Positions 7,488-31,436 of a DNA stretch of 64,000 nt are shown here, piece after piece (position 1 is the stretch's first letter; every line of letters starts with the position of its first letter). The stretch is from the NCBI GenBank assembly GCA_903927615.1, contig CAIYNU010000012.1, positions 1 to 64,000 of the forward strand, read 5' to 3'. The position numbers and the translations under genes are program-made. Below the pieces are notes generated by a model. That model was not told the DNA's origin. It searched no databases and worked only from the letters and a program-made list of their open reading frames with translations. The DNA comes from an uncultured Rhodospirillales bacterium (GTDB lineage: Bacteria; Pseudomonadota; Alphaproteobacteria; Azospirillales; Azospirillaceae).

Positions 7488-8684
7488 ATGGCCACAGAGC
7501 CGTTCGCCCCCGAGTCCGTCGCCGATCACGGACATCTGCCCCGCATCCGGCTGGCCGTCAGCCGACCGATGCCGCTCGATTGCGGCGTCATGTTGAGTGA
7601 CTTTCCGGTGGCGTACCAGACTTACGGCACCCTGAATGCCGACCGTTCCAACGCCATTCTGCTGTGCCATGCGCTGACCGGCGACCAGTATGTCATCGGC
7701 GGCAACCCGGTGACGGGCAAGCCGGGGTGGTGGGAGATCATGGTCGGGCCAGGCCGGCCCATCGACACCGACCGCTTTTTCGTGATCTGCTCCAATGTCC
7801 TGGGCGGTTGCATGGGCACCGTCGGCCCGATGGACCCGGACCCCGCCACCGGCCGTCCCTATGGCATCAATTTTCCGGTCATCACCATCGGCGACATGGT
7901 GCGTGCCCAGAAGCTGCTGGTCGAGTCCCTGGGCATCGAGCAGTTGTTTTGCGTCATCGGCGGCTCCATGGGTGGCATGCAGGTGCTGCAATGGGCCTCG
8001 AGCTACCCCGAGGCGGTGTTCGCCGCGGTCCCCATCGCCACCGCGCCCCGCCATTCCGCCCAGAACATCGCGTTCGGGGAGGTGGGCCGGCAGGCGATCA
8101 TGGCCGACCCGGAATGGTGCGGCGGCGCCTATCTGCTGTCCGGCCGGCGGCCCGAGGCCGGACTGGCGGTGGCGCGCATGGCCGCGCACATCACCTATCT
8201 GTCCGAGACCGCGCTGCACCGCAAGTTCGGCCGGAACCTCCAGGATCGCCCCGCCTTTACCTACGGTTTCGACGCCGACTTTCAGGTCGAAAGCTATCTG
8301 CGCTACCAGGGCAGCGCCTTCGTCGATCGTTTCGACGCCAACTCGTATCTGTACATCACCCGGGCGATGGATTATTTCGACCTGGCGGCCGAGCATGGCG
8401 GTGTGTTGCCGCGGGCCTTTCTCCATGACGGTCGGGCCACGCCGGTGCGCTTCTGCGTGATCAGCTTCTCCAGCGACTGGCTGTTCCCGACCACCGTATC
8501 CCGCGAGATCGTCCACGGCCTCAATGCCGTTGCGGCCAATGTCAGTTTCGTTGAAGTGACCACCGACAAGGGCCATGATGCCTTCCTGCTTGACGAACCG
8601 GAGTTGCATCAGGTGATGCACGGCTTTCTTGACGGGTGCGCCGCGCACCGGGGCTTGCCCCGGCGGCGATGGGCGCCCCGATGA
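7488..8684 (+). CDS. metX: Homoserine O-acyltransferase
   Basis: Transfers an acetyl (or succinyl) group from acyl-CoA to homoserine, the first committed step to methionine. It is an alpha/beta hydrolase-fold protein of the MetX family: the nucleophile elbow is GGSMGGMQ, the acid lies in FSSDWLFPT and the base in DKGHDAF. Acyl preference cannot be read safely. ATG 7488 ([10 protein letters not shown]) gives 398 residues; ATG 7452 would add 12 residues but overlaps the likely promoter. The stop overlaps the metW start as ATGA, the standard metXW arrangement. Confidence 0.94.
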
Positions 8685-9352
8685 TCGGGCGGCTGGACCC
8701 CACCGGGCCGTCGGCCGCCGTTCCGCACCGACCGCCCCACCGCAGCGACCCGCCGATCCGCACCGACCTTAAGCTGATCGCCGACATGATCGAGCCGGGG
8801 GCGCGGGTGCTGGATGTCGGCTGCGGCGACGGTACCCTGCTGGCCTATCTGGTCCACACCAAGGGCGTGGACGGCCGCGGCCTCGAGTTGTCCATGGACG
8901 GCGTGAAGTTTTGCGTCAATCACGGCCTGTCGGTGATTCAGGGGGATGCCGACACCGACCTTAAGGACTATCCCAGCGACGCCTTCGATTATGTCATTCT
9001 GAGCCAGACACTTCAGGCCATGCGGGCGCCGCGCGAGGTGCTGCTGGATCTGGTGCGGATCGGCCGGCGCGCCGTGGTCTCGCTGCCCAACTTCGGCAAT
9101 TGGCGCATCCGGCTGTGGCTGCTGGCCATGGGACGGATGCCGATCACCCAGCGGTTGGGCTATCAGTGGTGGAACACCCCCAATATCCACCTTTGCACCA
9201 TCACCGACTTTGTGACGCTGTGCCGGGAAGTCGGCATCCGCATCGAAGATACCGTGATCCTCGACCGCTCGGACCGCATCCGCGGCCATGGCGCCGGCGC
9301 CTTGTCCAACCTGATCGCGGAACAGGCGGTGTTCTTGTTGCGGCGCTGTTGA
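8681..9352 (+). CDS. metW: Methionine biosynthesis protein MetW
   Basis: MetW is a methyltransferase-fold protein that partners MetX in many Proteobacteria and is needed for efficient homoserine acylation. The SAM-binding motif [15 protein letters not shown] and the family's [12 protein letters not shown] and QWWNTPNIH are visible. ATG 8681 overlaps the metX stop and gives 223 residues, against about 200 usual; the first 25 residues are Pro-rich and poorly conserved in look. Operon with metX is near certain. Confidence 0.95.
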
Positions 9353-31122: not shown

Positions 31123-31436
31123 TGGCGTCCGCGGAGGGACTCGAACCCCCGGCCCCAAGTTTCATACCACTTCGGCTTTCGCCGCCGCCCTTCGGCGTTC
31201 GTGGTCTGGACTGTCCCTTCACCGTGGGCCGTAGCCGTTAGGTGTCGCCCATCCAGTCTCTACACCTTCCTCAATCGGGGCTTGACCCCAACAAGGCTTG
31301 GCTCGGGATTGGCAACGGGCACGTTGCGCCGTAGCGTTCCCCGACTTTGAGCGAATCCATTGCGCCGTTTCCAAACGCAACGCCCAGTTTTTACCAACAA
31401 GGAAACTTGTGCTCTATCCTGCTGAGCTACGCGGAC
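31123..31436 (-). tRNA. tRNA-Arg(CCU) interrupted by a group I intron
   Basis: The 5' exon is 31436-31400 (acceptor GTCCGCG, D arm GCTC/GAGC, anticodon arm CAAGTTTCCT) and the 3' exon is 31162-31123 (AAACTTG, then the T arm, CGCGGAC, G and an encoded CCA). Joined, they give a 77-nt cloverleaf with all four stems and the anticodon loop TTCCTAA, so the anticodon is CCU, which reads AGG. The acceptor stem pairs perfectly over 7 bp. The break lies between positions 36 and 37, inside the anticodon loop. Confidence 0.95.
31163..31399 (-). mobile_element. Group I intron in tRNA-Arg(CCU), 237 nt
   Basis: A self-splicing RNA that removes itself from the tRNA precursor. It follows a U at the 5' site, ends in G at the 3' site, and carries core segments that I recall as closely matching the Azoarcus tRNA-Ile intron: GAAGGTGTAGAGACT (31269-31255 reversed) and GGTGAAGGGACAGTCC (31223-31208 reversed), with GAGCCAAGC before them and a GGCGAAAGCC tetraloop hairpin near the 3' end. 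There is no homing endonuclease ORF. The internal guide sequence pairing with the exon was not settled: GGAAAC near the intron start and GGGGAAC further in are both candidates. Confidence 0.92.

Follow-up and report, generated by a model that had tools for sequence, protein, structure and literature searches.

The founding papers on tRNA introns of the kind considered here are reportedly those of Reinhold-Hurek and Shub 1992 and Paquin 1999, and the intron family is presumably of subclass IC3. The Azoarcus tRNA-Ile(CAU) gene has a group IC3 intron, inserted after U36, with a three-base guide directly before P2 which we take to be GUG, pairing with CAU. Introns of tRNA-Leu(UAA), judged on the copies aligned in this study, alphaproteobacterial ones among them, have the same core and a guide GAG pairing with the CUU before the splice site, but the host is another tRNA and splicing is after U34. 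According to PMC7717549, the alphaproteobacterial tRNA-Arg(CCU) intron family is known from Agrobacterium, and the Bartonella bacilliformis intron, located by 5' RACE beside the CCT of the same tRNA, is described as self-splicing.

The window (the whole stretch of 64,000 nucleotides that was analysed) contains a split tRNA-Arg(CCU) gene with a compact group I intron. The gene, intron included, occupies 314 nt of the minus strand (31436-31123; Table 1), and the 77-nt cloverleaf obtained from the joined exons was identified by ARAGORN as tRNA-Arg(CCU) with a score of 122.8. The first-pass annotation had read the tRNA with its CCA, a 237-nt insert ending in G and the lack of a homing enzyme; the halves and the insert (31399-31163) proved exact, and no homing endonuclease was found in the intron, where the longest stop-free stretch on either strand is 61 codons. 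With introns off (the default), ARAGORN returned no tRNA gene anywhere in the window. The insertion lies between positions 36 and 37, and the locus shares with the intron of Agrobacterium tumefaciens and BbgpI of B. bacilliformis the tRNA, the anticodon-loop site (by anatomy) and the small size; the guide GGG and one main clade are further points of likeness, and the window's copy has no homing enzyme. Differences lie in sequence drift and loop lengths in a comparison made via other Agrobacterium and Bartonella species; over aligned positions the intron has 94% identity with its counterpart in G004, 85% with the one in Agrobacterium cavarae and 75% with the one in Bartonella rochalimae. The 3' exon begins with AAACUUG in the window and with AAUCCUG in most relatives. 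From these sequence comparisons, the assignment of the intron as an ordinary member of the alphaproteobacterial tRNA-Arg(CCU) family is well supported.

Table 1. Parts of the split tRNA-Arg(CCU) gene and its intron, in window coordinates (paired cells and double changes from the 144-intron alignment)
Feature	Position	Strand	Remarks
5' exon of tRNA-Arg(CCU)	31400..31436	minus	37 nt; 3' end is the anticodon CCU (U36)
Group I intron	31163..31399	minus	237 nt; last base G
Guide (IGS) GGG	31383..31385	minus	directly 5' of P2; pairs with anticodon CCU as P1, U-G at the splice site
P2 hairpin	31358..31382 (arms 31382-31376, 31364-31358)	minus	88.9% of 1006 cells paired; double changes 7/7
P3	arms 31349..31354 (5') and 31245..31250 (3')	minus	99.0% of 864 cells; double changes 4/6
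P4 enclosing P5	31303..31344 (arms 31344-31340, 31307-31303)	minus	P4 99.9% of 720 cells; double changes 2/5
P6	31264..31302 (arms 31302-31300, 31266-31264)	minus	99.8% of 432 cells; double changes 1/3
P7	arms 31254..31258 (5') and 31209..31213 (3')	minus	720/720 cells paired; double changes 2/5
P8	31220..31244 (arms 31244-31241, 31223-31220)	minus	99.8% of 576 cells; double changes 3/4
P9 with inner hairpins	31166..31205 (arms 31205-31201, 31170-31166)	minus	95.6% of 710 cells; double changes 4/5
3' exon of tRNA-Arg(CCU)	31123..31162	minus	40 nt; first base A37; CCA encoded at the end

By DNA search of 59 genomes, matches were obtained in 46, many of them to the 5' exon alone. Within the window's family (35 genomes, the window's included), the intron was found in tRNA-Arg(CCU) in 12 genomes, 20 matched the Arg(CCU) gene over the 5' exon only and three gave no match; ten of the 20 were checked with ARAGORN, and all ten had an intact tRNA-Arg(CCU). 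A scan with the 3'-junction pattern gave at least 118 stretches from named genomes that carry the intron, and among the matches listed (80 titles, one of them no more specific than 'Proteobacteria bacterium') were Agrobacterium, Neorhizobium, Phyllobacterium, Bartonella, Methylobacterium, Azospirillum, Acetobacteraceae and Rhodobacter. The earlier remark that the class is known from alphaproteobacteria, Agrobacterium for example, holds. Four of the 118 stretches, with the match near the stretch start, were left out. Intron length was 213-318 nt over 134 Arg(CCU) introns, a number that is no count of distinct genomes because some genomes are in both the named and the unnamed set. Gene context was dropped as evidence because, within flanks of about 1.5 kb at the 12 relatives' loci, the neighbouring protein (32369-31512) was present beside the split gene at one and a methylmalonyl-CoA-mutase-like protein (name read from the sequence) at none.

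Six further matches (L135-L140) were read by eye, and four resemble Arg(CCU). One, L136 (G597:C1:899488-899696), from another class of the phylum, is by eye an Arg(CCU)-like intron with UGGG before P2; it is the second group I match of its genome and is absent from the tree described below.

The core was examined in 144 aligned introns, which represent nine tRNA kinds and were thinned from 180. Helices were drawn by hand on the window sequence and then tested against slid versions and 200 row shuffles; P1-P4, P6-P9 and two inner helices labelled by us P9a and P9b each exceeded the slid versions and the highest of the shuffles, controls to be read with the reservation that helices drawn on a single row tend to have an edge over slid ones and that row shuffles ignore relatedness. 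P1 was paired in 99.3% of cells (double changes at 1/3 pairs), P9a in 93.2% of 425 cells and P9b in 99.8% of 432 cells (double changes 3/3 in each). P5, with 61.6% of 804 cells paired, was above the controls (shuffle maximum, 56.4%) but weak, and P6a was unsupported in the 144 introns (44.5% of cells, within the shuffles and below the best slid version). P3, P4, P6, P7 and P8 were paired in 99-100% of cells with compensatory changes, the last base of the 5' exon is a U that pairs with G in P1, and the 3' base of the intron is G; the compact group I intron proposed from the first reading is borne out, with all five of these core helices present, whose absence had been named there as a ground for refutation. 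By homology, P7 would be the guanosine-binding helix.

The guide, which had been called not evident, became apparent once relatives were aligned, as GGG at 31385-31383 pairing with CCU. At the guide columns, pairing of the whole triplet with the final three bases of the intron's own 5' exon, wobble pairs counted, is possible in 141 of the 144 introns. The pairs are GGG with CCU in 99/99 aligned Arg(CCU) introns, GAG with CUU in 29/29 of Leu(UAA), GUG with CAU in 2/2 of a CAU tRNA and, at the window's guide columns, GCC with GGU in 1/3 of Thr(GGU). Exceptions are one Leu(CAA) intron (2/3 pairs) and two Thr(GGU) introns with GCC one base further on; in one Arg(UCU) row the guide pairs without a U-G. 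The motif UGGG was present in the first 60 nt of 134/134 Arg(CCU) introns. The changed guides (GAG, GUG and GCC) carry the proof because GGG can wobble-pair with several pyrimidine-rich exons. By this comparison, the guide tracks the host tRNA through GGG, GAG, GUG and GCC. The two introns with GUG and CAU (L119 and L123), for which ARAGORN prints Met, have hosts taken by analogy as tRNA-Ile(CAU); they resemble the Azoarcus intron in site and guide, lie in another tRNA than the window's intron does and share 66% of aligned positions with it.

Among the computational checks that had been proposed were a model search and folding of P1-P9. The Rfam group I intron model RF00028 was matched along its full 253 positions (E 5.6e-8), but the score of 37.7 bits falls short of the gathering score, 50, which is a detection limit and no defining trait of group I introns; at gathering scores, Rfam gave no match in the window. 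This intron is the sole RF00028 match at E 0.001 or better in its genome. Matches were found in 31/385 genomes of the class and 34/398 genomes of the phylum, in overlapping samples and with some matches outside tRNA genes, and the sensitivity of the model is limited, two intron carriers (G010 and G014) having given no match in the class survey. Folded as a lone sequence, the intron was ordinary (z -1.39; 17/200 shuffles equally stable), and this fold, without pseudoknot, had the guide region paired to the 3' arm of P7. A weak match to tmRNA (11.5 bits) that spans the tRNA's 3' half and the end of the intron was taken as a chance match to the tRNA-like end.

We consider it very probable that the locus encodes a precursor tRNA-Arg(CCU) carrying the family's group I ribozyme after U36, with core P3-P9 and guide GGG. 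In such a precursor, the anticodon loop would be interrupted after U36 by the compact ribozyme, which folds its core P3-P9, as the covariation shows, and the guide GGG forms with the anticodon CCU a P1 of three pairs with U-G at the splice site, as comparison shows. From what the family does, a guanosine bound at P7 would attack after U36, and the freed U36 would then attack after the terminal G, a step that ligates U36 with A37 and excises the intron. The likely course is, by analogy, ordinary group I splicing that restores the tRNA, and the intron, which has no protein gene, probably persists at its site as a near-neutral passenger.

If the intron were instead a decayed remnant, tRNA-Arg(CCU) would no longer be made and Arg(UCU) would read AGG. 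The RF00028 score below the gathering score and the presence of a tRNA-Arg(UCU) in the genome (L023) fit this, but none of the tested helices is broken in the window sequence, the two tRNA halves combine into a complete cloverleaf with its CCA, and the split gene is kept in 5/5 genomes of the genus examined, which suggests that selection maintains it; decay is accordingly judged very unlikely. The Rfam tRNA model gave 37 other tRNA matches in the genome, with a tRNA gene read by ARAGORN at each; Arg(UCU) and Arg(ACG) were among them and a second tRNA-Arg(CCU) was not. tRNA-Arg(UCU) can normally read AGG by wobble. The earlier warning that AGG would lose its cognate reader if splicing failed stands in that no CCU reader was found besides the split gene, but a reader for AGG would probably remain, since Arg(UCU) is present in this genome and could probably cover the codon in part.

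A junction elsewhere, giving another anticodon such as His(AUG) or Lys(CUU), is one reading of the ARAGORN output: with introns allowed, the boundary was shifted and the same cloverleaf was printed as His(AUG) or Lys(CUU), and in a brute-force splice search His(AUG) and Arg(CCU) scored equally. Such a junction is nevertheless extremely improbable, since the guide pairs with CCU and leaves the shifted exon ends unpaired, intronless relatives matching the 5' exon have Arg(CCU), and a His(GUG) is found elsewhere in the genome (L025). Because the bases flanking the two splice sites are unlike (U-U at one, G-A at the other), a product CCU-A permits one junction only. The 36/37 position, for which confirmation had been called for, is favoured by the last exon base U, the last intron base G and the pairing of the guide with the exon end, by the intact Arg(CCU) genes that ARAGORN reads in the intronless relatives, and by the mapping of the B. 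bacilliformis intron beside CCT of the same tRNA (PMC7717549). A non-group-I insertion or an assembly artefact, for which the 104-contig assembly of the genome and the same gene in the relative G002, with an N-containing repeated 3' end that is probably an assembly join, might be cited, is refuted, to the point of being scarcely conceivable, by the recurrence of the intron and its site in 12/35 family genomes and at least 118 named-genome stretches and by the covarying core. The G002 locus itself (L066, G002:C1, about 8379-8758) is a split gene whose 3' end is repeated around two N bases, probably by an assembly join of two variants.

In several other tRNAs, related introns follow U33, U34, U35 or U36, and the guide matches in almost every case; the nine tRNA kinds are Arg(CCU), Arg(UCU), Leu(UAA), Leu(CAA), Lys(CUU), Lys(UUU), Thr(UGU), Thr(GGU) and a CAU tRNA. 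Hosts were assigned by choosing among ARAGORN candidates, often tied, with the rule of U at position -1 and a terminal G, and the boundaries of L046, L093 and L110 were set by hand. The whole-genome set held 71 intron loci, L087 and L108 being omitted as second copies of L046 and L048; five had no host tRNA, L080 and L105 being cut by a contig end and L082, L113 and L126 showing no tRNA by eye. L105 resembles Thr(GGU) by eye. Lys(CUU), Thr(UGU), Leu(UAA) and Lys(UUU) are the hosts of L063 (G019), L064/L065 (G009), L048 (G045), L046 (G043) and L047 (G006), all with guides that pair with their own exons in the alignment, and in G009 the intron is present three times, once each in Arg(CCU), Thr(UGU) and Leu(UAA). 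Three introns (L103, L106 and L111 in G157, G303 and G208) lie after U36 of tRNA-Thr(GGU) with guide GCC, and two (L093 in G087, L110 in G082) lie after U33, apparently of tRNA-Leu(CAA), one of them pairing 2/3 guide bases. At L086 (G404:C155), an extra intronless 5' half of tRNA-Lys(CUU) stands just upstream of the Lys(CUU) gene that holds the intron; by eye it ends after the anticodon stem and is remnant-like. In the literature searched, in which few subscription journals were covered, hosts of the Thr, Lys or Arg(UCU) kind were nowhere described.

A tree was built from 88 of the 144 introns with exon and P1 columns omitted, and a check tree from 81 rows with seven long or odd rows omitted; the bootstrap had not settled in either. 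In the 88-row tree, one clade (support 100/99) unites 42 of the 43 Arg(CCU) introns, among them the window's. The remaining one, L109 (G245:C1:1512989-1513183; guide GGG), falls outside, where it joins an Arg(UCU) intron and an intron of a CAU tRNA (96/95); this placing is not firm, one partner having a very long branch and L109 and L118 an odd base make-up. In the 81-row tree L109 stands beside Leu(UAA) introns, and there too it lies apart from the main clade. Host labels change 14 times on the 88-row tree (minimum 8; shuffle mean 38.7). L109 may represent a second entry into the Arg(CCU) site.

Taken together, the relatives would be compatible with a clan of compact tRNA introns in the phylum, of which the Arg(CCU) intron is one branch; in this clan all possible splice U's of the anticodon loop (U33-U36) are occupied in nine tRNA kinds, the intron is re-aimed by a change of the three-base guide before P2 and Arg(CCU) was perhaps entered twice (main clade and L109), a reading that we put forward tentatively and with more doubt than confidence. 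The double entry into Arg(CCU) is its weakest part because the test allowed one common Arg(CCU) clade at 88 rows (p-AU 0.235) and rejected it at 81 (p-AU 0.009).

The find is real but ordinary, because introns of this kind were first described decades ago in related bacteria and are common there, and the window's copy is one more host for a family known since the 1990s. Its practical relevance lies in annotation: the intron-split tRNA-Arg(CCU) gene is overlooked at ARAGORN default settings, so that such genomes can seem to be without this tRNA, and the authors of tRNAscan-SE 2.0 likewise state that some bacterial tRNA genes escape their program on account of group I introns (PMC8450103). The wider comparison offers a simple, testable rule for how these introns aim at anticodon loops and for their possible moves between tRNAs.
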